Notes under the pieces: model-generated
Databases searched by the model: none
Seen by the model: only the letters and a program-made list of their open reading frames with translations
Told to the model about the DNA's origin: nothing
In this document: piece by piece, positions 13,425 to 54,830 of the stretch
Numbering within the stretch: position 1 is the stretch's first letter
Layout: every line of letters begins with the position of its first letter
Assembly: GCF_900103215.1 (NCBI RefSeq)
Contig: NZ_FNGV01000005.1
Span: forward strand, 186,001 to 250,000
Direction of reading: 5' to 3'
Source: Kriegella aquimaris
GTDB lineage: Bacteria > Bacteroidota > Bacteroidia > Flavobacteriales > Flavobacteriaceae
Length of the DNA stretch: 64,000 nt
Program-made: the position numbers and the translations under genes

Positions 13425-13554
13425 GCATAAAATTATCGTATACGATTATAGTAGTGTCATTTTAGGGCTGTCCTTACATTAATGTAATTCTTTATAAGCA
13501 CTTGTTTTGCTATGATTTTGGCTTATATAAAGCTGGACTTCACGGCGGTTACAG

Positions 13555-26662: not shown

Positions 26663-27010
26663 ATGAGCAATTTTCTATTTTTATTTAGAGGAGGAGACGC
26701 AACTTGGACCGAACAAACACCAGAAGAAATGCAAGCACATATGCAAAAATGGGGCGCTTGGATGGGTGGTCTAAAAGAGAAAGGACAACTGGTTGACGGT
26801 CTGCCCTTGGCCAAGAGCGGCAATGTAGTGCATAAATCAGGAGAGGTGATTACCGATGGCCCTTTTGCAGAGGGTGCTGAGGTTGTTGGCGGATACCTCA
26901 TTGTATCGGCCAATGACCAAAAAGGTGCAGTTGAAATTTCAAAGGGCTGCCCTATTTTTGAACACGATGGAAATGTTGAGGTTAGAGAGATTATGTCAAT
27001 GAACATGTAG
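26663..27010 (+). CDS. YCII-related (DGPF) domain protein
   Basis: 115 residues. The YCII/DGPF motif is plain: ITDGPFAEGAEVVGGYLIV. The His/Asp arrangement typical of YciI-like enzymes is only partly preserved. Genes of this type are usual partners of ECF42 sigma factors, one of which lies 60 bp downstream. In those systems the protein's own function is not well defined. Confidence 0.9.
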   Translation: MSNFLFLFRGGDATWTEQTPEEMQAHMQKWGAWMGGLKEKGQLVDGLPLAKSGNVVHKSGEVITDGPFAEGAEVVGGYLIVSANDQKGAVEISKGCPIFEHDGNVEVREIMSMNM

Positions 27011-28324: not shown

Positions 28325-28449
28325 ACAGTGCATATTCTACTTCCTTTTCGATTTCTTTCTTCATTCCATAATTATCAAATAAGTGGGTTGAAGATGTTTA
28401 CTTTTTGATTTTCGTGGAACCAATGGTCGTAAATGTAAATTATAAACTT

Positions 28450-29022
28450 ATGACCATGAGAAAATCATTATTTTTAGTAGTAGCATTCTTTTTGATGCTT
28501 GGTATCGCTCAAGCACAAGATTTTAATTTTGGAGTAAAGGGAGGGATCAATATAGCTTCAATAGGCGGCAATTCTTACGTCGGACTTGGAGGTTTTGGCT
28601 CTAAAGTTGCCTTCCATTTGGGAGGTGTGGCCGAAGTTCCCATTTCCGAGAAATTCTCGATTCAGCCCGAACTGCTATATTCCTCACAAGGTAGCAAATG
28701 GAATTATAATTCGTCGGATGGTAATCTAAAATTGGACTATATCAATTTACCGATTCTAGGCAAATATCATATCATTAAAGGGTTGAGTGCCGAAGCCGGA
28801 CCCATGGTAGGTTATTTGATTTCAACAAACGAGGAAGCGGAAGACAGTCGTTTTTCAAAATTGGATGTTGCTTTTGCAATTGGTGCTTCTTATCGCTTAA
28901 ACGACAATATTTTCTTTGGCTTGCGCTATAACAAGGGAATATTGAATATCAACAACGACTCGAATATCGACGGGAGCAATCAAAACAATGTGTTTCAAAT
29001 TTTTGATGGATATTCTTTTTAG
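28450..29022 (+). CDS. Outer-membrane beta-barrel protein
   Basis: About 190 residues with a signal peptide (LMLGIAQAQDFN). It has the small PorT/OmpW-like barrel pattern: FNFGVKGGINIASIGG, PISEKFSIQPELLYSSQGS, INLPILGKYHIIKGLSAEAG, and a C-terminal aromatic (GYSF). About eight strands would span the outer membrane. The function is unknown, such barrels are often abundant porin-like or adhesion proteins. The frame extends upstream to a TTG at 28405, ATG 28450 (or 28456) fits the signal peptide. Confidence 0.87.
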   Translation: MTMRKSLFLVVAFFLMLGIAQAQDFNFGVKGGINIASIGGNSYVGLGGFGSKVAFHLGGVAEVPISEKFSIQPELLYSSQGSKWNYNSSDGNLKLDYINLPILGKYHIIKGLSAEAGPMVGYLISTNEEAEDSRFSKLDVAFAIGASYRLNDNIFFGLRYNKGILNINNDSNIDGSNQNNVFQIFDGYSF

Positions 29023-38794: not shown

Positions 38795-39529
38795 CTATAA
38801 CATGTCAAGAAAATCCGACTTCTTTTGTCTAGAGACAGGTATTTTATGATTCGACTTTAGCACGACGTAGCCGTCTGTTTTGAGGAATTCCTTTATCTTA
38901 TTTAAATTTATGATATAAGAATTGTGGATACGAAAAAAAGAATCTTGAGGGAGAAGCTCATTAACTTCCTTTAATTTTTTGGTTAAGACAATCTTTTGTC
39001 CATCGGAAAGAAATATAGTACTATAATTCCCATCAGATTCGGCATACAGTATCTCGTCGCTCTCCAAGAACATCAACTTTCCATCAGTGTTGAGTGTTAT
39101 CTTTTTATGCACGGAATTCGAATTAAAATTCAGAAGTATTTTTTCTAATCTTTCCGCCGTGAAATTTTTGGCATTAAACTTTTTAATTTTGACAATGGTG
39201 TCTTTCAAGTCATCGGTATCAATAGGCTTTAATAGATAATCAATGGCCTCGTTCTTAAGGGCCTTAATGGCGTATTGGTTATAGGCAGTGGTTATAACCA
39301 CCGGAAAATTCTTGTTCTTTAATTTTTGTATGAATTGAAAACCATCCATTGTAGGCATTTCAATATCAAGAAATAAACAATCAGGTGTATTACTGTCCAA
39401 ATAGTCCAACGCCTCCATTGGATCGGTAAAAGATGCGTTCACCTTTATTTCATTGCTAAAATTGGTAAGTTCCCAAGATAGGCTTTGTAGGGCTTTTATT
39501 TCGTCATCGACTATTACGGCTTCCAACAT
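38795..39529 (-). CDS. LytTR-family response regulator
   Basis: 244 residues. The receiver domain (1-120) has phosphoacceptor Asp55 in CLFLDIEMPTMDG. The LytTR DNA-binding domain (about 140-244) includes DEILYAESDGNYSTIFLSDG and FFRIHNSYIINLNKIKEF. Such regulators bind pairs of 9-bp direct repeats separated by 12-13 bp. A match lies upstream at 39753-39782. First gene of the leftward pair with the LytS-type kinase. Confidence 0.95.
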   Translation of the reverse strand: MLEAVIVDDEIKALQSLSWELTNFSNEIKVNASFTDPMEALDYLDSNTPDCLFLDIEMPTMDGFQFIQKLKNKNFPVVITTAYNQYAIKALKNEAIDYLLKPIDTDDLKDTIVKIKKFNAKNFTAERLEKILLNFNSNSVHKKITLNTDGKLMFLESDEILYAESDGNYSTIFLSDGQKIVLTKKLKEVNELLPQDSFFRIHNSYIINLNKIKEFLKTDGYVVLKSNHKIPVSRQKKSDFLDML

Positions 39530-40959: not shown

Positions 40960-43900
40960 ATGAAAAAAAAGAAAATCGTAGTTAACTTCTCAAAAATCGT
41001 GGGTCTTGTCTTAATTTTTGTGGGCAATTGCCATCTTTTTTCACAATCACAAATTACTTTTAGACAATTATCAATTAAAGATGGGCTTTCCCAGAATAGT
41101 GCCATATCTGTTTCTCAAGATAGTATAGGGTATTTGTGGATTGCTACACAAGACGGTCTCAATCGGTACGACGGCAGGTCATTTACTACATTCCCCTATA
41201 CCTTTGTAGATATTACCAAACCCGATTACAGTAATCTCGGCAAAGTATATACTGATAGACAGGGCGGGGTTTGGATAATTCCCATGGATCGCACACTCAG
41301 AAAATTCGAACCAACAGCGGAAATATTCGAATCACTACCAGGAATCAATGATGCCAGCACGCTCATTCAAGGTGATAAATTGAATTATTGGGTTGGCACT
41401 TATAATAACGGATTATTTCGTGTGAAACCGGATTTAAAGGGGGGTTCTGAATATAAGGTGGAGCAGGTATTGTCGTCAGACCAACTCAACACAACCATTT
41501 TCAATATTGTCCAACATACCGATGGAAAACTCTTGCTCACCACCGAGAAGAAAATCATCTTGTTTGACCCAGCTACCTTCAAATCGGAATATATAGAACC
41601 AACTACCCTATATGGGGAGCCAATCGACGTAAATTTTAGCGATATCGTTTTGGACAAGATGGGTAGGGAGTGGATTGGTACATATGGTGACGGACTGTAT
41701 TTTGGGGAAATTGGGGGTAATGGTCTTCGGCGTATTTCGGACCTTGATTTTACCGATCCACTACCTCAAAATCTCAATATTATCGATTTATATATAGATT
41801 CAAGAGATCGGTTGTGGGTCGCTACCTACGGTCGAGGACTATATATGATAAACTTTGAGCAAGAAAAAATACAACATTTTAGCTCCGAAAAACACAATCC
41901 GCAGGCCTTGCATTATGACGATATCCTCTGTATATATGAAGATTATTCCGGTACATTATGGTATGGAACCGATGGTGCCGGGCTGAGCTATTATGATGAG
42001 TACCTTGAGAAATTCAATTCGTTTACCAATTATCAGACCCCAGAGCGTATTAGCATTGATGTGGTACGAGCCATTACTTTGGATAAAGATGATAATGTAT
42101 GGGTCGGCACATCAGGAAAGGGGTTGACCCAATATCAACCGGAAACCAACAGCTGGCAAACATTTATCGCTGAGGCGGGTGACACCAATACCATTTCCTC
42201 CAATAGGATTATGGCCTTGCAAACCGATACCGATGGTAATCTTTTAATCGGTACTCAGGGTGGCGGACTTAACATTTTGGACAATGACGGCCAATTCACG
42301 CAATTTTCACCAACAAGTAATCCTAGCCTGTCGGCAAATACCATCTGGACTATTTATAAAGATCGTAAGAATAGATATTGGTTGGGTACCCGGGAGCAAG
42401 GCCTAGTGCAATTCAATAAGGAAAAGGGGGAAATTCTTTCGTACAAATATGATTCTGGGCTCTCTAGTAATAACATTAGGGCGATTACAGAAGACGATAG
42501 CGGCAATCTGTGGATGGCTACCGATGCTGATGGAATTGTTCATTTGGATCTTCAAACAGGCAAATTCATGCATTACGTTAATGACCCAAAGAAAAACTCG
42601 TTGTCGAACAATAGTCTGAAGACCTTATATTTCGCACCGAACGGTATCTTGTGGATCGGCACAAACGGAAGCGGGTTGGACGCTTTTGACACCAAAAGTC
42701 AAAAATTCTATAATTACAATATACAAGATGGGTTGGCCAACAACGTTATCTACGCCATATTGCCCGATAGTCATGGAAGCCTATGGTTGAGCTCCAATAA
42801 GGGAATCACAAGATTTACTCCTGGCGATAACTGGCAATCACAGCCGCAAATCACAAATTATACCAACTATGACGGGCTCGCCACCGAATTCAATACCGGT
42901 GCCTATTATAAACATAAAAATGGCGCGCTTTATTTCGGAGGGTTAGAGGGGTTCTATTGGTTTAAACCTAATCAAATTAGAGAAAACAATATACTTCCTA
43001 AAACAACTATTACCGGGCTGGATATTTTGAACCAACCTTATCCCCTTCAAAAAAATAGAGAACTGCGGCATGACCAAAACACACTGTCTTTCAGTTTTTC
43101 TAGCATGCAATACTCCCTTCCCGAAAAGAATCAGTATCAGTATAAATTGCAGAACTATGACAACGAGTGGGTTTCTTCGGGAAACACCAATTTTGCAAGA
43201 TACACACAATTGCCTCCAGGAGATTATGAATTTTTGGTAAAAAGTAGCAATTACGATGGGGTTTGGAACGAAAGCCCTGCAAGCTATAGTTTTTCGATAG
43301 CACCTCCCTGGTATCTAAGTTCCTGGGCGAAAATCGTCTATTCGGTGTTATTCATGGCATTGATTTTTGGAGTGTATCGCTATGTAATTTGGAGATGGAA
43401 AGTGAAACTTGACCTTGAGCGAAAGGAAGAAGAAACTCAAAGGCTTAAAAAGCTAAATGATTTTAAATCTAAACTGTATACCGATATTTCACACGAATTT
43501 CGCACACCCTTGACATTAATTTCGGCCCCTGTGGATAAGAAAATGGCAGAAGGAAAATTGTCACATAACGATTTCGTGAGCTTTTCGATGATCAAACGAA
43601 ACACCCAACGATTAATAGCCTTGGTAGACCAACTGCTACATTTGGCCAAACTCGAAAAAGGCGAATTGAAGTTAAGGATAGACAAGGGCAACCTTGGACT
43701 TTTTTTGGGAATGATAACTACTTCCTTTGAGTATAAGGCGCAGGAGAGAAATATCACATATACTATAACCATTGAAAATTTAGACGTTGCTTGGTTCGAT
43801 GAAGATGCTCTGGAGAAAATCGTTACCAATTTACTCTCCAATGCTTTTAAATATGGAAGTCAAGGAGGTGAGTGTCATTTCAAAGCTATACGGTCAGAGG

Positions 43901-44991
43901 ACAACATATTGATTAGCGTGAAGAACACCGTGGAAAAGCATTCAGATATTGATGTTGATAAATTGTTTACACGCTTTTACCAGCAGGATGCTCATGCCGA
44001 TGGAGCGGGAATAGGACTTTCAATGGTGAAAGAACTAGTACATTTGTATCATGGGCAGACATCCGTAGCTATGGAGCGCGAAGATCTTATTCACTTTCAA
44101 ATACGTTTACCTATTGAAAAAGGAGCATTTGGAAAAGAGGAGTTTTGTAAAACAACCTCAGAGATTCCTGATAGGGTTTCGAATACTGCGTTGGTAAGCG
44201 GTGAAAGTTTGCAGGTAGGTCAAAAAGAAGGGGTTCGTCCGATACTTTTGATTGTTGAGGATCAGAAAGAGGTACGTGAATTTCTGAAATCGGTATGGCA
44301 TACAAAATATGAGGTGTACGAGGCGTACAATGGACAGAAGGGTGTCGAAAAAGCTTTGGAAATTGTACCTGACCTTATCATCAGCGATGTGCGTATGCCC
44401 ATTTGTGACGGTATAGAGTTGTGTAATAGACTAAAGACAGATGAACGTACGAGCCATATCCCCATTATTTTGCTTACTGCAGGTATAAGCGAAGAGAATG
44501 AACTAAGAGGCCTGCGCTCGGGTGCAGATGATTTTATAACCAAACCCTTCAAGTTGAGTATACTTGAAACGCGTGTGGCAAATTTTATAGCAACTAGAAA
44601 AAGGCTTCGAAGCCGTTACAGCCAAGAGTTGGTACTTGAGGCAAAAGATATTGCGATTACGCCCACAGATGAGATTTTTTTGAATCGGGTACAGCGAATT
44701 TTGGACGAACATTTGTCGGACGCAAGTTTCAATGCCGCGGCATTTGGCGAACGTATAGGCATGAGCCGTATGCAATTGCACCGTAAATTACAGGCCTACA
44801 CGGGCCTAAGTACTACCGAATTTATTCGTTCACAACGTTTACGGCAGGCTGCTCAAATCTTAAAAACTACTGACATTACCATTAATGAGGTGGCCTATAC
44901 CGTAGGCTTTAATACCCCGTCTTATTTTATCAAATGCTTCAAGGAAACTTATAAAAAAACACCCTCAGAGTATCTTCAATCTCCTAATTGA
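40960..44991 (+). CDS. Hybrid two-component system regulator (HTCS)
   Basis: 1343 residues in one chain. After a signal peptide there are about 14 two-component-regulator-propeller repeats forming two periplasmic beta-propellers (pattern GYLWIATQDGLNRYDG). A Y_Y_Y domain follows at about 715-780, a transmembrane helix at about 787-808, then a HisKA box DISHEFRTPLTLIS (His near 844) and HATPase (NLLSNAFKYG, GAGIGLSMVKELVHLYHG). The receiver has Asp near 1142 (LIISDVRMPICDG), and an AraC-type DNA-binding domain lies at about 1235-1343. The usual DxGxG of the ATPase is replaced by SVKNTVEKHSDID, as I recall for a flavobacterial subgroup. HTCSs normally control an adjacent glycan-use locus, none is here. 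Confidence 0.96.
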   Translation: MKKKKIVVNFSKIVGLVLIFVGNCHLFSQSQITFRQLSIKDGLSQNSAISVSQDSIGYLWIATQDGLNRYDGRSFTTFPYTFVDITKPDYSNLGKVYTDRQGGVWIIPMDRTLRKFEPTAEIFESLPGINDASTLIQGDKLNYWVGTYNNGLFRVKPDLKGGSEYKVEQVLSSDQLNTTIFNIVQHTDGKLLLTTEKKIILFDPATFKSEYIEPTTLYGEPIDVNFSDIVLDKMGREWIGTYGDGLYFGEIGGNGLRRISDLDFTDPLPQNLNIIDLYIDSRDRLWVATYGRGLYMINFEQEKIQHFSSEKHNPQALHYDDILCIYEDYSGTLWYGTDGAGLSYYDEYLEKFNSFTNYQTPERISIDVVRAITLDKDDNVWVGTSGKGLTQYQPETNSWQTFIAEAGDTNTISSNRIMALQTDTDGNLLIGTQGGGLNILDNDGQFTQFSPTSNPSLSANTIWTIYKDRKNRYWLGTREQGLVQFNKEKGEILSYKYDSGLSSNNIRAITEDDSGNLWMATDADGIVHLDLQTGKFMHYVNDPKKNSLSNNSLKTLYFAPNGILWIGTNGSGLDAFDTKSQKFYNYNIQDGLANNVIYAILPDSHGSLWLSSNKGITRFTPGDNWQSQPQITNYTNYDGLATEFNTGAYYKHKNGALYFGGLEGFYWFKPNQIRENNILPKTTITGLDILNQPYPLQKNRELRHDQNTLSFSFSSMQYSLPEKNQYQYKLQNYDNEWVSSGNTNFARYTQLPPGDYEFLVKSSNYDGVWNESPASYSFSIAPPWYLSSWAKIVYSVLFMALIFGVYRYVIWRWKVKLDLERKEEETQRLKKLNDFKSKLYTDISHEFRTPLTLISAPVDKKMAEGKLSHNDFVSFSMIKRNTQRLIALVDQLLHLAKLEKGELKLRIDKGNLGLFLGMITTSFEYKAQERNITYTITIENLDVAWFDEDALEKIVTNLLSNAFKYGSQGGECHFKAIRSEDNILISVKNTVEKHSDIDVDKLFTRFYQQDAHADGAGIGLSMVKELVHLYHGQTSVAMEREDLIHFQIRLPIEKGAFGKEEFCKTTSEIPDRVSNTALVSGESLQVGQKEGVRPILLIVEDQKEVREFLKSVWHTKYEVYEAYNGQKGVEKALEIVPDLIISDVRMPICDGIELCNRLKTDERTSHIPIILLTAGISEENELRGLRSGADDFITKPFKLSILETRVANFIATRKRLRSRYSQELVLEAKDIAITPTDEIFLNRVQRILDEHLSDASFNAAAFGERIGMSRMQLHRKLQAYTGLSTTEFIRSQRLRQAAQILKTTDITINEVAYTVGFNTPSYFIKCFKETYKKTPSEYLQSPN

Positions 44992-45007: not shown

Positions 45008-45076
45008 TGTTACATCTATTGCATACATTGTTACATATGTAATATTCGTTGTGTGCTTGCTTCAATAGCTTTGATT
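45008..45076 (+). promoter_or_regulatory. Promoter/operator block shared with 51702-51770
   Basis: Two copies of GTTACAT at 45009 and 45030 (21 bp apart), with CTATTGCAT between. A -7-like TAGCTTTG at 45066-45073 lies exactly 36 bp after the second copy, and TTG at 45049-45051. The block at 51702 has the same elements at the same distances, and 43 of 69 positions match without gaps. It starts 17 bp after the HTCS stop and precedes the lipoprotein gene at 45114. The repeat spacing fits a dimeric AraC- or LytTR-type protein, and the HTCS is the nearest candidate. Confidence 0.65.
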
Positions 45077-45113: not shown

Positions 45114-45536
45114 ATGAAAGTGAAGTACACATTAATCGGTTTGTGTTTTTTTCATCTATTGGCTTCATGTGAGAATTTGGGCGAAGATATTGAAGAGAGA
45201 ATAGGTGAGAATACAGGGGAAACCTGTTTGTTTCCTGATCATCAGACGATTCCTGCGTATATGCGTGCTCTAAGAGATGAGTATAACGCTCAAATGTTGA
45301 CACCTGATTCAGAGGGTAATATGCAATCTTACGAAAAATGCAAAGCAAATCTTGAGGCTGCCGAATTATACTGGAGCAATTTGGATAATGTAAATCATCT
45401 TTTAGACGATTATTGTCCTGAACGTAATAGTAAACGGAACCAAGAACATAGAAGGGATGTAGAAAAACTTAGAAGTGACCTTCAAAGGCAAATCAATGAA
45501 ACAAATTGCGAATCGGTTTTTGGGGAAGGGGAATAA
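45114..45536 (+). CDS. Small four-cysteine lipoprotein
   Basis: 140 residues. The lipoprotein signal ends in LLASC (Cys19). The mature part is mainly helical and charged, with four cysteines at 38, 76, 101 and 132 that could form two disulfides in the periplasm. The lipoprotein at 52697 has the same layout (39, 71, 91, 116) and similar residues around the last three. No known family. First gene after the shared promoter block. Confidence 0.7.
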   Translation: MKVKYTLIGLCFFHLLASCENLGEDIEERIGENTGETCLFPDHQTIPAYMRALRDEYNAQMLTPDSEGNMQSYEKCKANLEAAELYWSNLDNVNHLLDDYCPERNSKRNQEHRRDVEKLRSDLQRQINETNCESVFGEGE

Positions 45537-45620: not shown

Positions 45621-46043
45621 ATGAACAAGCTTAAATGTTTATTACTTATAATTTGTTTGGGAACCTGTTCAGTAGTACGGGCACAGACCCATAGTACCAA
45701 AGAAACTAAGGTAATATTGGTAGTAAGTGCCAACACTCAGGTAGTAACCCATATGGTTTTGTTCAACTCCTTTGAAAAACTGAAGAGACAAGAGGTTGAG
45801 AATGCTTTTCCTAATAGTAAGTTTTACATAGGTCTCTTAAAGGGAAACTATATTTTAGACGACTACGGGCTTAAACCTGAGAAAGACACCGAGGTGATTA
45901 TCTATTCGAACCGACAAGTTTTTCAGGAAGAGCCATTTTTGGCTGGGGAAGACATTGCATTGGGTGATAAGATTAAGCTTGGGAACAGAACGGCACGCAT
46001 AATTTCAAACAAAAAGGGAGAAATAACGCTAAGAACACACTGA
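45621..46043 (+). CDS. Hypothetical secreted protein
   Basis: 140 residues with a signal peptide (CLGTCSVVRAQ). The mature ~115 residues appear alpha/beta, with segments such as EVENAFPNSKFYIGLLKGNY and EVIIYSNRQVF. No family recognised. The frame extends one codon upstream to TTG, ATG 45621 is used. It lies 84 bp after the lipoprotein gene, probably the same operon. Confidence 0.62.
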   Translation: MNKLKCLLLIICLGTCSVVRAQTHSTKETKVILVVSANTQVVTHMVLFNSFEKLKRQEVENAFPNSKFYIGLLKGNYILDDYGLKPEKDTEVIIYSNRQVFQEEPFLAGEDIALGDKIKLGNRTARIISNKKGEITLRTH

Positions 46044-47313: not shown

Positions 47314-50235
47314 ATGAAAAAGAAAACTTTTTATATCAAATACATGCGCAGTACTTGCCTATTGGTCTTTTTTTTCTTTGTTTCGGTAGGTGCAGTATCT
47401 CAGAATATCGCCGATAAAGAAAAATTGGTAGAAAAGTTTTATTTCAAGGGCTTGGAGTTGACCAACACTAAAAAAGACAGTTCTTTTTTTTATTACCGAC
47501 TGGCATTACAACACGCAGAAGAATTACAACACCATTCCGACGCGATTGAAATTCTTTTTGGATTGATTTTAACAGCCCGAAAACATGGTGATATAGAGCA
47601 TCATCAGATTTTTTTACAAGAAATTGACTCTATTCTGACAAATGAGGATGTTCGTATTGCATTAGACGATTACCAATATTATGAAAATAGGTTTATTTAT
47701 GAAAAGGCCACCTATTTCTATGACCTACTAGAGTATGATCAGGCAAAGAGAGACTTTCAAAAGCTGTATACCCTTCTTTCAAAAAAAGAACTCGTCAAGT
47801 TAGATGAATACGAGTACAACCTCTTAATTCATACCACAAACTATCTTGCACTAATCTATAGTCATAATTCGAAATATGATTTGGCAGAGACCTATTTTAA
47901 CCGATCGCTAAATTTCATTCAAAGCAATCCAGTTGACGAATCGGAAACTTATAGATTAGCTACGCTGCAATTGTTGGCCCAGTTACATAGGTTTACCCAA
48001 AACTATAAGAAATCCAATACTATTCTTAATGAGGTTCTGGGTGCTTATAAAGTTCGGTATGCCAAAAATAAAGGTTATAAAAACAATGTGAATGCGGCCT
48101 ATGGCAAGTTGGTGGAAATTGCAATAGACCAAGGAAATCTACAAAAGGCATTATCCAATTTACAAGAAGCCCAAGAATATCTTTTAGATAATGACCCCTT
48201 CTACAAAGATTATCTGATCTTATATGGAGATATTTATTCTGGTCTTAAGAACGATGAAAAATCTTTGGAAAGCTACCAAGAAGCACTTCGACTTTTTCAA
48301 GAATACCGCCAAAACCAACCCCACCAAGACATTGCCGAAGTCCAAGGAAAGATTGCTGAACTTTACTTAAAGCAAAAAAACTATCAAGAAGGGCTGAAAA
48401 CGGTTAAAATAGCCTTCAATGCTGAGGGAAGTAATATTAAAATCACAGATTATAAGCATAATCCAAATCCGACCCAGGTTTTTTCAAAAACTCAACTACT
48501 ACATTTACTAGATGTAAAATTGCAACTTTTGCAAGGCACCTATGAAAAAGCAAGCGATGCCTCGGTTCTAGAGGCGATGCTAAAAACAAGCAATAACATT
48601 TTAGAAACTTTCGACCTGCTAAAAACAGAATTCGACAGCAAACTCGACAAACAGTTTCTGGCCGAGAAAGCCTATCCTATCTTCCATCGTATGATGGGGG
48701 TTGCCTTTATGGCTTACAAAAGCGACCATTCGCCAGAAGTGCTGGAACTAGCTCTTAATATTGCTGAAAAAAATAAAGATTTTGTTTTGTTGGAAGCCCT
48801 TCGTAATGCGCAGGCGGTCCAATACGGTGATGTGCCGCAAAAAGTAATGGATAAAGAGGCGCAACTGCGAGCAGAAATCACCCATTTTGAAAAAGAAATT
48901 TTCGACACCACTGGCGGCACAACCGAATTTTCAGACCAGCTTTTTATCTTGAAACAAAAATATTATGGTTTGTTGGACACGTTGAAACAGAAATATCCAA
49001 AATACCACGATTTAAAATATGGTAGCCAAACCATGGATCTTGCGACGATACGGAATACTGTTATTGGAGATGGGAATACTTTACTATCCTATACGATGAC
49101 CGATAATTATCTTTACATTATTGTTCTCGACAACAAAGATGAAAACTTTATAAAACTCCCCTTCTCGGAGGCCGACAGGGAAGATATTCGCAAATTTTAT
49201 CGGCTACTTTCAAAACCGGATTTAAACGGAGCGGAAGAAGAAGTGATTATTTTAGGTGAAAATCTTTTCGACAAACTTCTAAAAGAACCTTTGAAATATT
49301 TCAAGGGGCAAAACCTGACTATAATTCCCGATGGTGAACTTTATTATCTACCATTTGACATTTTGCATGAAAATGGGTCTTATTTATTAAAAACAAAGAG
49401 TATTGGTTATGGTAATTCAGTTGCCTCCCTAATCGCGCTCAACAAAAAAAGATCGATTAGCAAGAACAAGGTTTTGGCCTTTGCCCCGAATTTTACCGAT
49501 GCTGTAGTGTCGAGTACCGACCGACAATTCGGAAAATTGCTTTATAACGATGATGAGGTAGCTAATATTAGTTCGTTCTACGATACCGAAACCGTTCTGG
49601 ACGAAAAAGCCACCTTGGCCAGTTTTAAAATGAAGAATTCACATTTCAATATGCTTCATTTGGCCACACATGCCTCGGCCAATGATGAGTATCCTGATTA
49701 TTCGTATTTGGCTTTTAGTCAGGGGAAAGATAGTAGCGAGGGCAACATTCTTTATATTAAAGACCTTTACAATATCACCTTAAATGCCGATATGGTGACT
49801 TTGAGCGCTTGCCAGACCGGCATCGGAAAACTACAAAAAGGGCAAGGCATGCTGAGCCTTTCAAAAGGCTTTTATTATGCCGGTGCGAAATCATTGGTGA
49901 ATACCCTGTGGAAAATCAACGACAAAAGCAGCGTAAAGTTAATGAAGTACTTTTATGAGGGGTTAAGTAACGGACAGGGTAAATCGGAAGCTTTGCGAAA
50001 GGCGAAGCTCAAATATCTGGCAAGTACTGATGATAACCTGTTGAAGCACCCTTACTATTGGTCTGCTTTTGTCGTTTCAGGAGATGTGTCACCCATAAGC
50101 CCCAATCACTTTTGGGAATATACTGTTATGGGTGTTTTGATTTTAGGAATTGTTCTTCTCTACATTGTTGGGCGTAGAAATTTTTTTCGTAGTAATCGAA
50201 GTACTTTCAACATTAAAATAAATATGAAAAGGTGA
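47314..50235 (+). CDS. TPR-CHAT domain protein, caspase-like, periplasm-facing
   Basis: 973 residues. A signal peptide (STCLLVFFFFVSVGAVSQ) is followed by TPR-type helices (about 60-380, for example LYGDIYSGLKNDEKSLESYQ). The CHAT domain is about 640-925, with catalytic-type His in LHLATHAS (near 782) and Cys in TLSACQTG (near 832). A C-terminal transmembrane helix (about 934-955) ends in a basic tail, so TPR and CHAT should face the periplasm. CHAT belongs to the caspase/separase clan, and both dyad residues are present. The convergent sigma/anti-sigma pair begins right after its stop. Confidence 0.9.
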   Translation: MKKKTFYIKYMRSTCLLVFFFFVSVGAVSQNIADKEKLVEKFYFKGLELTNTKKDSSFFYYRLALQHAEELQHHSDAIEILFGLILTARKHGDIEHHQIFLQEIDSILTNEDVRIALDDYQYYENRFIYEKATYFYDLLEYDQAKRDFQKLYTLLSKKELVKLDEYEYNLLIHTTNYLALIYSHNSKYDLAETYFNRSLNFIQSNPVDESETYRLATLQLLAQLHRFTQNYKKSNTILNEVLGAYKVRYAKNKGYKNNVNAAYGKLVEIAIDQGNLQKALSNLQEAQEYLLDNDPFYKDYLILYGDIYSGLKNDEKSLESYQEALRLFQEYRQNQPHQDIAEVQGKIAELYLKQKNYQEGLKTVKIAFNAEGSNIKITDYKHNPNPTQVFSKTQLLHLLDVKLQLLQGTYEKASDASVLEAMLKTSNNILETFDLLKTEFDSKLDKQFLAEKAYPIFHRMMGVAFMAYKSDHSPEVLELALNIAEKNKDFVLLEALRNAQAVQYGDVPQKVMDKEAQLRAEITHFEKEIFDTTGGTTEFSDQLFILKQKYYGLLDTLKQKYPKYHDLKYGSQTMDLATIRNTVIGDGNTLLSYTMTDNYLYIIVLDNKDENFIKLPFSEADREDIRKFYRLLSKPDLNGAEEEVIILGENLFDKLLKEPLKYFKGQNLTIIPDGELYYLPFDILHENGSYLLKTKSIGYGNSVASLIALNKKRSISKNKVLAFAPNFTDAVVSSTDRQFGKLLYNDDEVANISSFYDTETVLDEKATLASFKMKNSHFNMLHLATHASANDEYPDYSYLAFSQGKDSSEGNILYIKDLYNITLNADMVTLSACQTGIGKLQKGQGMLSLSKGFYYAGAKSLVNTLWKINDKSSVKLMKYFYEGLSNGQGKSEALRKAKLKYLASTDDNLLKHPYYWSAFVVSGDVSPISPNHFWEYTVMGVLILGIVLLYIVGRRNFFRSNRSTFNIKINMKR

Positions 50236-50250
50236 TGAAATTCACAGGGT

Positions 50251-50269
50251 CTCGCTAGTCGAGTTTTTT
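50251..50269 (+). terminator. Compact terminator after the CHAT gene
   Basis: CTCG (50251-50254) pairs with CGAG (50260-50263), then six T. The stem is short, and it overlaps the 3' end of the convergent anti-sigma gene (stop at 50255-50257). Confidence 0.45.
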
Positions 50270-50983
50270 CAATAGCTCTTTTGCCGCTTCTTGTTTAAAG
50301 CCATTTCGGTCTATTAGTTTCTGCAATTGGTCTTCACTTTTGGTAATCGCTCGAAGTTTAAGGTATGAAAGTGCCAAATACCATCTGGCACGATCTTTCA
50401 GTTGGCCATCATTTTTAATATAGGTTTCCAGTATTGAAGCGGCCTCTTGGTGCCGATTCAATTGCATCAACACAACAGCCTCATAAAAGTCGATGTATGG
50501 GTCGCCCTGCTGTATTTGTAGTTCTTCGAAGAGTTTAAGTGCCAACATGTAGTCTTGATCCTCGTAGGCCGTAAAGGCTCTGGTTTTGAGATCTTTCAAT
50601 TGTTCACCACGTTCGATGGGGTGTACTACGTTTTCATAAGGTGCAAAATTGGCAGCGTACAACTGGTCGGTGTTCAAGTCGGTATTGTTGAAAAACAAAA
50701 GCCAAGATCCTAGTGCGATCAATAAGGCAAACGAAGCAGCAATCAACCATGGGCGCATGCGCACGACTCTGGTTTTTGCTGTTGTCGCTTCTATGTTAAG
50801 ACCAGCGAACATTGCTTTGATTTCTTGACGCTCCTCTTTTTTGAGCGAACGTTGAAGTTCTTTTTGAAACTCAAAGTCTGTAGCAAATGCTGTATCAGTT
50901 TTAAGCAAACGTGCTAACTCCTCCAATTGATTTTCGGAGAGGGAACCTTCAAAATATCCGTTAATCAATTCGTGTTTATCCAT
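50255..50983 (-). CDS. Anti-sigma-like membrane protein with periplasmic TPR domain
   Basis: 242 residues. The cytoplasmic N-terminus (1-75) has the Bacteroidota anti-sigma-like pattern INGYFEGSLSENQLEELARL. A transmembrane helix at 79-98 follows a basic stretch (TRVVRMRP). The periplasmic C-terminus (about 118-242) has two to three TPR-like repeats (AYEDQDYMLALKLFEELQ, VLMQLNRHQEAASILETYI). No zinc-binding motif or FecR domain. It overlaps the sigma gene by 8 bp, so it is coupled to it. Anti-sigma function is inferred from topology and position. Confidence 0.78.
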   Translation of the reverse strand: MDKHELINGYFEGSLSENQLEELARLLKTDTAFATDFEFQKELQRSLKKEERQEIKAMFAGLNIEATTAKTRVVRMRPWLIAASFALLIALGSWLLFFNNTDLNTDQLYAANFAPYENVVHPIERGEQLKDLKTRAFTAYEDQDYMLALKLFEELQIQQGDPYIDFYEAVVLMQLNRHQEAASILETYIKNDGQLKDRARWYLALSYLKLRAITKSEDQLQKLIDRNGFKQEAAKELLKKLD

Positions 50984-51530
50984 CGTTGCGTTGAATTAGC
51001 TCTTTTAGTGATTTCAAACAGCGCGATTTTTGGCTTTTAACTACATTCTTGTTATCATAGCCCTGTACGCTCATAATTTCTTCCAGTTTTAGGCCTTGCA
51101 AATAGAACAGTTCTAAAATTTCACGACACTTGTCACCTAATTTTTTAAAATTTTCCACCATTTTTTTTTGGTATTCGCTAGGGCCTTCATCTTCATACAC
51201 ATCATCGATTACCGCCTTTTCTTTTTGGTCAAAAACATAGGTCTCTTCGGTGGCTATTTCCTTGGTATCCCTGAACTTTTTAAAAAGCATAAACTTTCCA
51301 GTACTGAATAGGTAGGTTTTTAGACTGCCATTCAAGTGGTCCAGCTTTCCTGCTAGGGCGTTTTCGTAGAGTGCTATAATGGCATCCTGGAAAATATCCT
51401 CTAAGGTATCATCTGCTTTGGTGTATCGCGAGGCGAATCTGAAAAATTCGGACTTGTATCCGCGATATACGTCTTTTAGCGCATTTCTGTCCCGCCTTTT
51501 CAATTGGGCAATCAGCTGCTGGTCATTCAT
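50976..51530 (-). CDS. ECF RNA polymerase sigma factor
   Basis: 184 residues. Sigma region 2 spans about 20-85 (RYTKADDTLEDIFQDAIIAL, TYLFSTGKFMLFKKFRDTKE) and region 4 about 120-180 (EILELFYLQGLKLEEIMSVQ, NKNVVKSQKSRCLKSLKEL). The linker between them is acidic and rather long. It is co-transcribed with the membrane protein downstream. Targets unknown. The promoter block of the divergent DUF4412 operon starts 170 bp upstream. Confidence 0.92.
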   Translation of the reverse strand: MNDQQLIAQLKRRDRNALKDVYRGYKSEFFRFASRYTKADDTLEDIFQDAIIALYENALAGKLDHLNGSLKTYLFSTGKFMLFKKFRDTKEIATEETYVFDQKEKAVIDDVYEDEGPSEYQKKMVENFKKLGDKCREILELFYLQGLKLEEIMSVQGYDNKNVVKSQKSRCLKSLKELIQRNDG

Positions 51531-51701
51531 TAGTGTACTATTAGTAAAAAGGTAAACATTCTTTAAATATATATTTTTTTATCCGTGATGTTGACCTTTT
51601 CGAATGTTAGGTACTAATGTGTGTAAAAGAAATAGAGCTTATATGTAAAGGCCTTTAAAATAAGTAGAAAAAACTTTTTAAAAGGTAGGTTAATTATAGC
51701 A

Positions 51702-51770
51702 TGTTACATCTCTTGCATGTTCGGTTACATATAGTATATGATTTGTTGCTAGTCCATACTAGATTCGAGT
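51702..51770 (+). promoter_or_regulatory. Promoter/operator block shared with 45008-45076
   Basis: GTTACAT at 51703 and 51724 (21 bp apart), CTCTTGCAT between them, TTG at 51743-51745, and TAGATTCG (one base off TAnnTTTG) at 51760-51767, 36 bp after the second copy. All spacings equal those of the block at 45008. The DUF4412 gene starts at 51806, 38 bp further on. An open frame runs from the ATG at 51701 through this block, but it is non-coding by this reading. Confidence 0.65.
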
Positions 51771-51805: not shown

Positions 51806-52660
51806 ATGAAAACGAAAAAAAACAGCAAGTTGCTAATTATTTTATTCCTATTGGTAGGAATGAATGCTCAGGCGCAATTCTTTAAAAAGATAGCTAAAAG
51901 TGCCGAAAAAGCGGCAGAACGAACGGTTTTAAAAAAGACAGAGCAAAAGACGTCCGAAAAAACCGATCAAGCCCTCGATGATATTCTTAATATGGATTTC
52001 GGTTCAATGGGCGGGTCTAATGTAGACCCTTCGACCTTACCGAAGTCTTACGAGTTCGATTGGCGCTATACCTTACAGATGTCACACGAGAAGGGAGATA
52101 TGAAATTCCATTATTTCTTATCGGAAGATGGCGGGGCCTTTGGTAGTAGACCAGAAATGGCACAAGGTGGAACCGTAATGGGTAACATGCTCATGGTAAT
52201 TGACCCTACGCTTTCAATAACTACAATATTGATGGATAATGGCGGGAGAAAAACGGGAACTGTAATGTCAAATCCTGATATAGTCAACGAAGCTACCCAA
52301 GAAAGTGATTTGAGCGATTATGAGTTTAAGGAAATTGGCACGAAGAAAATTTTGGGTTTCACGTGTCAAGGCTTCGAAATGGAAAGTGAAGACCACAGAA
52401 TGACAATGTATGTGGCCTTTGATGCTCCAGTGAGCTTCAATAGCATGTACAGTGGTAATAATTCTAAACAGATGCCTAAAGGCTTTGATCCCAAATGGTT
52501 TGAAAAGATGGGGGATAACAGTTTGTTGATGGAAATGGATTTTCACAATAAGAAGAAACCAAAGGAGAGTGCTAAGATGACCTGTGTTGCCTTGGAAAAG
52601 GAACCTCTGCAAATAGATGTTTCTCAATACGAGTTTCTACAGATGCAAGTACAAAAATAA
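51806..52660 (+). CDS. DUF4412 domain secreted protein
   Basis: About 284 residues with a signal peptide (LIILFLLVGMNAQAQ). A charged helical stretch (KKIAKSAEKAAERTVLKKTE) precedes the DUF4412 domain (about 85-280, SYEFDWRYTLQMSHEKGDMK, KKILGFTCQGFEMESEDHRM). Function unknown. The family is periplasmic and common in Bacteroidota. The frame extends upstream to 51701, but MKTKKNSKLL at 51806 gives the signal peptide. First gene of an apparent operon reaching to 54205. Confidence 0.85.
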   Translation: MKTKKNSKLLIILFLLVGMNAQAQFFKKIAKSAEKAAERTVLKKTEQKTSEKTDQALDDILNMDFGSMGGSNVDPSTLPKSYEFDWRYTLQMSHEKGDMKFHYFLSEDGGAFGSRPEMAQGGTVMGNMLMVIDPTLSITTILMDNGGRKTGTVMSNPDIVNEATQESDLSDYEFKEIGTKKILGFTCQGFEMESEDHRMTMYVAFDAPVSFNSMYSGNNSKQMPKGFDPKWFEKMGDNSLLMEMDFHNKKKPKESAKMTCVALEKEPLQIDVSQYEFLQMQVQK

Positions 52661-52696: not shown

Positions 52697-53050
52697 ATGA
52701 AAACAATTAAAGAAATGAAAACAAGACTTTTTTTGATCGGCTGTGGTGCTGCAATAATCACATTCACAAGTGGGTGTAGTAAAGACAACCCTTTGAATCC
52801 CAATGGAAATTGTTTCGGTGGAAATTGGGCGGACCAATATACCAATGAGTTACAGGCTTGGTCGAATGCTGCCACTGCTTATAGCCAAGAACCAAGCCAG
52901 GCAAATTGTACAAACTATAAAAATGCTGCAAAGGCTTATCTGAATGCTTTAGATGACATTTATGACTGTGTGCCCAATACAAGTCGGGCCGAAATTGACA
53001 GAGCCATAAAAGAAGCCAAGGCCGATATTGATCAAGAAAGTTGTGATTAA
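52697..53050 (+). CDS. Small four-cysteine lipoprotein, paralogue-like to the 45114 gene
   Basis: 117 residues. The lipoprotein signal ends in FTSGC (Cys27). The mature chain has cysteines at 39, 71, 91 and 116, the same number and order as the 45114 protein. The third cysteine is followed by a Pro (CVP here, CP there), and the C-terminus is a charged helix ending at the last Cys in both. No named family. It lies 36 bp after the DUF4412 gene, in the operon with the shared promoter block. Confidence 0.7.
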   Translation: MKTIKEMKTRLFLIGCGAAIITFTSGCSKDNPLNPNGNCFGGNWADQYTNELQAWSNAATAYSQEPSQANCTNYKNAAKAYLNALDDIYDCVPNTSRAEIDRAIKEAKADIDQESCD

Positions 53051-53157: not shown

Positions 53158-53799
53158 ATGAAAACACTAGGAATAGTATTAGTGACCTTTGCCCTTGTTT
53201 CGTGTACGGGAGAGGTAAAAGAAAAACTGAGAAAAGTGAAGCAGAACGTTTCGAACGTGACTACCATTGCCGATAGGGCTCAAGAAGCTAATGCCGACTT
53301 CGAAAAACTAAAGGATGCCAAGCCATTAACCAATGAGCAGTTGAAGGAGTGGTTGCCCGCATCCTTGAATGGGTGGGAGCGGACAAGTTTTGGTGTAGGT
53401 AAAACTGGCTATATGAACGTTGCCTCTATTGAGGGTGGTTTCACAAACGAAATCGTCATAAAATCTGATACGGGTGAATCGGAAACCGTACGGCAGAAAT
53501 TCTCGGTCAGCCTTGTAGATGGGGCAGGTCCATCGGGAAGCATCATGGTAGCAGGCCTTGGTATGGCCGCAAAGATGGATATGGAAGAGGAGAACGAAAA
53601 CAAACATACCATGGCAATAACGGTTAATGGTATTCGCGCGCAACAGACCTTTCATAAAAAACGAAACGAGACGGCCCTTCAATTTGTTTATGGCAAACGT
53701 TTGGGAGTCATTGCCAACGGCGTAAAAATGAATCCCGAGGAAACTTGGGCAATGATCGAAAAATTGGATTTGAAAAAACTGACCGATACAGCAGAATGA
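53158..53799 (+). CDS. Hypothetical lipoprotein
   Basis: 213 residues. Short lipoprotein signal (VTFALVSC, Cys16). A helical segment (EKLRKVKQNVSNVTTIADRA) is followed by a globular domain (about 55-205) with LPASLNGWERTSFGVGKTGY and LQFVYGKRLGVIANGVKM. I know no function for it. It lies 107 bp after the four-Cys lipoprotein and 43 bp before the DUF4870 gene. Confidence 0.68.
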   Translation: MKTLGIVLVTFALVSCTGEVKEKLRKVKQNVSNVTTIADRAQEANADFEKLKDAKPLTNEQLKEWLPASLNGWERTSFGVGKTGYMNVASIEGGFTNEIVIKSDTGESETVRQKFSVSLVDGAGPSGSIMVAGLGMAAKMDMEEENENKHTMAITVNGIRAQQTFHKKRNETALQFVYGKRLGVIANGVKMNPEETWAMIEKLDLKKLTDTAE

Positions 53800-54687: not shown

Positions 54688-54785
54688 TAAATTACTTGAA
54701 ATTAGCATTTTACATAGTTTGTGAAAATTTATGGTGACACAATAGTCTCTTAAGAAGAGAGGCAATTAAAATGCAATAAAATTTT

Positions 54786-54830
54786 AAACCAAAAAGTATG
54801 TTTTTATATACTTTTTGGTTTGTTTTTTTT
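54786..54830 (+). terminator. Intrinsic terminator upstream of nrdB
   Basis: A 14-bp perfect stem (54786-54799 with 54808-54821), 8-nt loop, then TGTTTTTTTT. It would end transcripts coming from the DUF4870 operon or the small ORF at 54512. Confidence 0.75.

Follow-up and report, generated by a model that had tools for sequence, protein, structure and literature searches.

An HTCS gene of Kriegella aquimaris and its conserved direct-repeat sites indicate a probable regulon of envelope protein genes

Introduction

Two short blocks of DNA in Kriegella aquimaris, copy A (positions 45008-45076) and copy B (51702-51770), align without gaps at 43 of 69 letters, and each lies ahead of genes for predicted envelope proteins. 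Which regulator reads these blocks, and what does it control? Both lie in a stretch of 64,000 nucleotides that was analysed as a whole (the window). An earlier note on this DNA had proposed a local regulon and had put forward, as the best candidate regulator, the hybrid two-component system (HTCS) whose gene ends just upstream of copy A. In this protein, a membrane sensor kinase, a receiver and an AraC-type DNA-binding domain are predicted to form one chain. What is known of HTCSs concerns mostly glycan sensors linked to PULs. In this study we follow the two blocks through the genome of K. aquimaris and through other genomes, and we weigh the HTCS against other regulators. Genomes and loci are given by our own handles (G and L numbers) where they have to be told apart.

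Results

Three sites with one rigid layout

When block A was slid along both strands of the window, the mean was about 18.8 matching letters (standard deviation 3.7), the runner-up on the + strand reached 37 and the top position on the - strand 35. In both copies GTTACAT occurs twice with a period of 21 bp, starting at 45009 and 45030 in copy A and at 51703 and 51724 in copy B, and the letters between the repeats are CTATTGCAT and CTCTTGCAT, respectively. The -7 boxes, TAGCTTTG (45066-45073) and TAGATTCG (51760-51767), lie at +57 from the first repeat and 36 bp from the second. Thus, the alignment, the repeats, their spacing, the middle motif and the distance to the box were all reproduced as the earlier note gave them. 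The TTG that it added to the architecture is common to A and B (+40), but it is absent from the third copy (below) and elsewhere weakly favoured or not conserved, and we dropped it. The third-ranked ungapped match of the window, at 13425 (37/69), was dropped because it lacks GTTACAT. The features of the two sites are:

45009-45025, + strand: site A half-site 1, made up of GTTACAT and a second box (repeat alignment, half-site logo)
45030-45046, + strand: site A half-site 2, which begins 21 bp after the first and covers the place expected for -33 (alignment, logo)
45066-45073, + strand: site A -7 box, TAGCTTTG, at exactly +57, where 34/35 ortholog sites have TAnnTT
51703-51719, + strand: site B half-site 1 (repeat alignment)
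51724-51740, + strand: site B half-site 2 (repeat alignment)
51760-51767, + strand: site B -7 box, TAGATTCG (+57 position)

The exact pattern GTTACAT-N14-GTTACAT occurs at three places in the 6.06-Mb genome, all on one contig (C17), whereas about 0.1 would be expected by chance, as estimated from the base composition of the window. The third place, copy C, lies 86 kb from copy A and matches copy A at 45/69 and copy B at 40/69 letters. Even though it was retrieved through the repeats alone, it carries TACCTTTG at the identical +57; TAnnTT(T/C)G starts at 0.08% of window positions. Copy C is upstream of a gene for a GAF-AraC regulator, with a RimK-type gene on its other side. A regulon with a member 86 kb away is not only local, and in G011 and G194 the GAF-AraC sites are also far from the HTCS. 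The genome-wide scan, which the earlier note had proposed, yielded this third exact copy but no excess when up to two mismatches were allowed (54 versus 86 for the reversed pattern). Our claim is thus restricted to exact or near-exact sites.

Recurrence of the sites in other genomes

A scan of 84,980 species genomes for the pattern of repeats plus box gave at least 113 stretches, holding 116 sites. Among the stretches listed, 108 are from Bacteroidota and the other five comprise two Chlorobiota, one Clostridia MAG, one Ruminococcaceae MAG and one Parablautia genome. In 115 of the 116 listed sites, letters that the pattern did not fix reveal a second box in each half, which makes the half-site about 17 bp long with two contact regions. 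The same two-box logo of 17 bp appears in both halves, in these 115 listed sites as in 35 sites found behind HTCS orthologs. No clear -33 box is seen in the logo; half-site 2 occupies its place.

Of the 116 listed sites, 50 lie no more than 700 bp after the end of an HTCS gene of the same strand, and 42 no more than 100 bp, compared with 0.25% for random positions. The other 66 lack an HTCS end over these 700 bp, in which some of the fetched loci end, and they include sites from Prevotella. In seven loci of Prevotella and relatives (L053, L054, L059, L076, L087, L111 and L123), the repeats and box stand before large secreted or hydrolase-like genes. An HTCS with the helix sequence SRMQLHRK (below) was not found nearby in these seven, and a different regulator sharing the motif may act there.

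Sites behind the orthologs of the HTCS

The regulator that we propose has the following gene:

40960-44991, + strand: HTCS (Pfam: Reg_prop, Y_Y_Y, HisKA, HATPase, receiver, AraC-type DNA-binding domain)

The Pfam hits place sensor, kinase, receiver and AraC-type domain within one chain, and the stop codon ends 17 bases ahead of the first GTTACAT of copy A. Because the pattern-found set was picked by the site, we reversed the test and sought HTCS orthologs by protein in 199 genomes of the family, K. aquimaris included; the two sets overlap in some genomes. We obtained 41 ortholog proteins at 42-61% identity, long paralog matches at 29-39% and two further matches, at 49%, that cover the C-terminal part alone. 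At least 12 of the 14 repeat letters were present within 400 bp after the stop in 25 of 40 orthologs (own included) and in none of 29 paralogs, a subset of those from the protein search. The remaining orthologs mostly have concerted variants in the same place, for example GAAACAT or GGAACAT. Counted in this wider form, a 21-bp repeat of the GNNACA(T/A) type lies within about 130 bp behind the HTCS gene in 37 of 40 orthologs, among them L203, whose first half is TGAACAT. No GNNACAW pair at 21-bp spacing was found in the 29 paralog flanks over 800 bp. In G011 a wider scan placed the site 473 bp behind the HTCS (13/14 letters, with TAGTTTTA at +57), and in G157 it lies about 1 kb behind the HTCS, ahead of the GAF-AraC gene. 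The G142 ortholog has a stop in the matched stretch, its DNA-binding domain is not in view, and it has no site. L187 (G103), whose hit ends at aa 1054, stands outside the 40 and was read separately; it has Met in the helix and the site GTTACAT/GGTACAT.

The box is just as rigid. Among the ortholog sites, which were not picked by the box, the start of TAnnTT falls exactly on +57 in 34 of 35, and at every other offset from -12 to +12 it is found in at most one. This count covers 35 of the 40 orthologs; L183, L189, L210, L212 and L213 had no site placed at first scoring, and in L183, L210, L212 and L213 a site was present on later reading. The earlier note had named, as evidence against its proposal, related genomes that keep the genes while losing the repeats. 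Such loss was not seen for the HTCS gene, since 37 of 40 orthologs keep the repeat.

One helix residue and the half-site variant

The two forms of half-site follow a residue in the DNA-binding domain:

44770-44772, + strand: codon for Met1271, within SRMQLHRKL of the first AraC-domain recognition helix, the proposed specificity residue (helix/half-site association)

Orthologs with SRMQLHRK have GTTACA(T/A) halves, with a single-letter change in one half in G026, G103 and G011. Where Thr or Ser takes this position, the halves are of the GNAACA type; L203, L209 and L211 show other letters. The association fits all 27 ortholog rows in which both site and helix are in view (the site of L210 was read later), and predictions written beforehand for ten orthologs with unseen helix came out correctly in all ten. 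In the pattern-found set, among the matches listed, Met is present in 49 of 49 HTCSs adjoining exact sites. It is found in none of 20 paralogs, which are from the 29 above or their kind, and in one of the 26 helices that were read in K. aquimaris. The latter come from 33 matches, of which three were without a locus, two unaligned and two unread, while some gave the helix of a neighbour. In an alignment the Met1271 position falls on a Trp of SoxS, and that Trp contacts DNA.

In a tree of 28 of the 40 ortholog rows, built with the DNA-binding domain left out, the Thr/Ser rows form one branch inside the Met rows. The change from Met to Thr/Ser is thus a single one on the tree, and neither the rows nor the ten predictions are independent. 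An own TPR-type HTCS that has Thr in the helix was considered as a further test of this rule and rejected, because the GNAACAT repeat is absent behind it. Therefore, the residue does not determine the site by itself. Behind this TPR-sensor HTCS (L037:1717-4536, G000:C17) come lipoprotein-like genes and, at about 130 bp, a 21-bp repeat of another sequence (ATCTATCAT / ATCTACCAT).

These figures also bear on a reading in which several HTCSs of one DNA-binding lineage share the site, and another HTCS, or several, acts in K. aquimaris. SRMQLHRK is present in HTCSs adjoining exact sites with or without a Reg_prop-type match (some fetched loci end early), and some genomes hold sites that the HTCS ortholog does not explain. 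Across 49 genomes, 37 exact 28-mers were found versus 4 for the reversed pattern. They comprise 28 in 18 of the 25 genomes with a Met ortholog, 7 in 5 of the 12 with a Thr/Ser ortholog and 2 in 1 of the 12 without an HTCS match at E 1e-150. If our reading holds, another HTCS must act on the seven sites in the Thr/Ser genomes; the flanks of five were inspected, with SRMQLHRK upstream in one (G015). In K. aquimaris, however, Met occurs at this position only in the HTCS at 40960-44991 among the 26 helices read, and we regard the shared-site reading as improbable.

Site C and two other candidate regulators

Action at a distance is best tested at site C. The site stands before the GAF-AraC gene in all six genomes with an HTCS ortholog and in none of the four without one (one-sided exact p of 1 in 210 over the ten genomes). 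It retains at least 13 of 14 letters in the six and at most 9 in the other four, where the absence concerns this HTCS ortholog and HTCSs with other sensors may be present. The distance from the HTCS to the GAF-AraC site is 76-90 kb in G000, G011 and G194; in G026 and G131 the GAF-AraC site is the very site behind the HTCS, and in G157 it lies 1 kb behind the HTCS. In G001 the GAF-AraC is 64% identical, the scanned stretch has no site, and no HTCS match reaches the ortholog range. The identity is 44-45% in G119, G199 and G217, so that orthology is less sure there and G001 is the only close ortholog among the four.

Since GAF-AraC is itself an AraC-family protein and has the site upstream in 6 of the 10 genomes examined, it could bind the sites, regulating its own gene as well as operons A and B. 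We give this reading as small a chance as the shared-site one. G001 keeps GAF-AraC without the site or the HTCS ortholog, as do G119, G199 and G217, so the site is missing in 4 of the 10 genomes that have the gene, and a GAF domain is found in 2 of 113 listed site loci. Less probable still is the LytTR response regulator (38795-39529), a further candidate of the earlier note: its gene lies 5.5 kb upstream of site A and the repeat spacing fits, LytTR proteins also using direct repeats about two turns apart, but LytTR domains are present in 2 of 113 listed site loci and are thus not regularly linked to the sites, the second conserved box of each half-site fits two helix-turn-helix units, and LytTR binding would leave the HTCS-lineage link unexplained. 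The sites linked to its orthologs, the helix association and the co-occurrence with the GAF-AraC site agree with the earlier note in favouring the HTCS at 40960-44991, which is well supported as the candidate regulator.

Target genes

The predicted targets behind sites A and B are:

45114-45536, + strand: A1, lipoprotein, lipobox Cys19 plus Cys 38, 76, 101 and 132
45621-46043, + strand: A2, secreted protein of the KETKVILVV type (TTG 45618 is the start of the mechanical ORF)
51806-52660, + strand: B1, DUF4412 protein with a signal-peptide-like start (Pfam PF14371)
52697-53050, + strand: B2, lipoprotein, lipobox Cys27 plus Cys 39, 71, 91 and 116
53158-53799, + strand: B3, lipoprotein (a relative is first behind a site in L093)

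A2 is a predicted member of operon A on account of the 82-bp gap. The mechanical ATG of B1 at 51701 is an unlikely start because it overlaps site B. The earlier note had placed a four-cysteine lipoprotein in both operons, which holds for A1 and B2 if the lipobox Cys is counted separately.

A comparison of 69 window queries (GAF-AraC included) with 110 listed first genes behind sites gave 11 queries with a relative. These are A2, B1, B2, B3 and GAF-AraC; the HTCS, together with three more ORFs that resemble regulators or kinases; and two ORFs that stand isolated. A2 has relatives among 5 of the 110 first genes (one at E 1.7e-7) and B1 among 9. A relative of B2 is the first gene after HTCS and site in L038, and a look-alike of B3 lies behind a G101 site. 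A1 is rare, being found in the own genome and, at weak similarity, in one other among 60 searched. Behind the HTCS ortholog of G027, the second ORF encodes a weak relative (E 8.6e-4). Against the argument from relatives counts the isolated ORF 28405-29022, which has a strong relative in one locus and is itself without such a site upstream; the other, 26663-27010, has a weak one.

No SusC, SusD or glycoside hydrolase was found in 38 proteins behind 26 ortholog loci and the own one, nor did a scan of 20 window proteins yield susC/susD products or glycan enzymes. The downstream proteins include lipoproteins, DUF4412, collagen-like and lipocalin-like proteins, kinds that suggest an envelope role for the putative regulon.

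Several further features lie near the two operons. A TPR-CHAT protein is encoded between them (47314-50235), and beside it, in the opposite orientation, lie an ECF sigma gene (50976-51530) and a TPR gene (together 50255-51530). Downstream of operon B, 54785-54822 holds a 17-pair A/T-rich hairpin with a T run, which gives a terminator-like match on each strand.

A small protein behind many orthologs

A survey of the first ORF within 1.5 kb of the HTCS gene covered 27 of the 40 ortholog loci. In 15 of them the first ORF behind HTCS and site encodes a protein of 45-51 aa with no signal peptide (IYLSIDHLKxGxYxLNIxLxNKVxKS), for example L190:5558-5704 and L198:1216-1350, plus 13 similar loci. The protein occurs in 39 of the 199 family genomes and is absent from that of K. 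aquimaris. Its located copies have the repeat upstream in 27 of 28 cases (of 30 loci). Matches to Por_Secre_tail were found for 9 of the 15 proteins at E up to 1, the best at 1.4e-5.

Discussion

Taking together the sites, their rigid spacing, the link to one HTCS lineage and the helix/half-site association, all read from the DNA and protein sequences, we propose that A, B and C are very probably activator-dependent promoters of one HTCS regulon. The HTCS would be triggered through its sensor and, once phosphorylated, would bind as a side-by-side pair to the two 17-bp half-sites 21 bp apart. Its first helix-turn-helix would read GTTACAT and its second the TnnTA box about 10 bp on. With the downstream half-site over the -33 region, RNA polymerase would be set at a fixed distance on the TAnnTTTG -7 box. 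For a start a few bases past the box, the bound pair would extend from about -69 to -32 and may replace the -33 contact. Control by phosphorylation is assumed from published sections on Bacteroides HTCSs (PMC11253607). The predicted output comprises the lipoprotein and the secreted protein of operon A, the DUF4412 protein and the lipoproteins of operon B, and the GAF-AraC regulator, the last of which would make a two-step cascade. The downstream genes indicate that the HTCS would turn on envelope protein genes and a second regulator, not genes for sugar use.

At araI1-araI2, AraC occupies 17-bp half-sites in a 21-bp repeat, the downstream one adjoining or over the -35 region. The K. aquimaris sites are similar, with 17-bp half-sites at 21 bp and the downstream one over -33, even though AraC is a one-component sugar regulator with another sequence and another sigma factor.

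The earlier note knew of no described counterpart. However, the passages of Ravcheev et al. (2013, PMC3878776) on predicted HTCS sites of Bacteroides thetaiotaomicron describe direct repeats of two conserved sites, 21 bp on average; HTCS_Man has two 16-bp sites with a 5-bp spacer, and some of the predicted regulons include distant genes. Because of this spacing, the Kriegella architecture belongs to a known kind, and the AraC-type HTCS, the direct repeat of about 21 bp upstream of targets, as expected of an HTCS regulon, and the distant targets are all shared. As those passages have it, the HTCSs were chosen because they adjoin susC/susD, and they control glycan utilisation, whereas the Kriegella half-site is based on GTTACAT, the predicted targets are non-glycan and a site lies just behind the HTCS gene. 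For BT4124 and BT4663, which are of the same protein class, the mBio 2024 sections (PMC11253607) report that phosphorylation of receiver plus DNA-binding fragments frees a buried recognition helix, with promoter binding seen by gel shift. Unlike the Kriegella targets, their promoters are those of PULs of a gut Bacteroides, and these sections give no half-site code. In the open-access literature, to which our search was confined, we found no account of the motif or the regulon, nor one for DUF4412. As far as searched, what appears to be new is the motif, the set of non-glycan targets, the helix association and the conserved place of the site after the HTCS gene.

A broader proposal is possible, though we think it is rather unlikely to hold as a whole. 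A widespread flavobacterial HTCS lineage may have left glycan sensing and may control, from a promoter fixed in place just behind its own gene, a regulon related to the envelope or to secretion. One residue of the first recognition helix would then decide between the half-sites (GTT with Met, GNA with Thr/Ser). The first-gene protein of 45-51 aa that one large branch has resembles a type IX secretion sorting-domain tail and might report on secretion or feed back to it.

Our findings tie one HTCS lineage by sequence to a rigid promoter and to recurring lipoprotein, DUF4412 and regulator targets. The helix/half-site association can be tested by a one-residue swap. In addition, the analysis suggests a route to assign HTCSs to their targets across the Bacteroidota without expression data.
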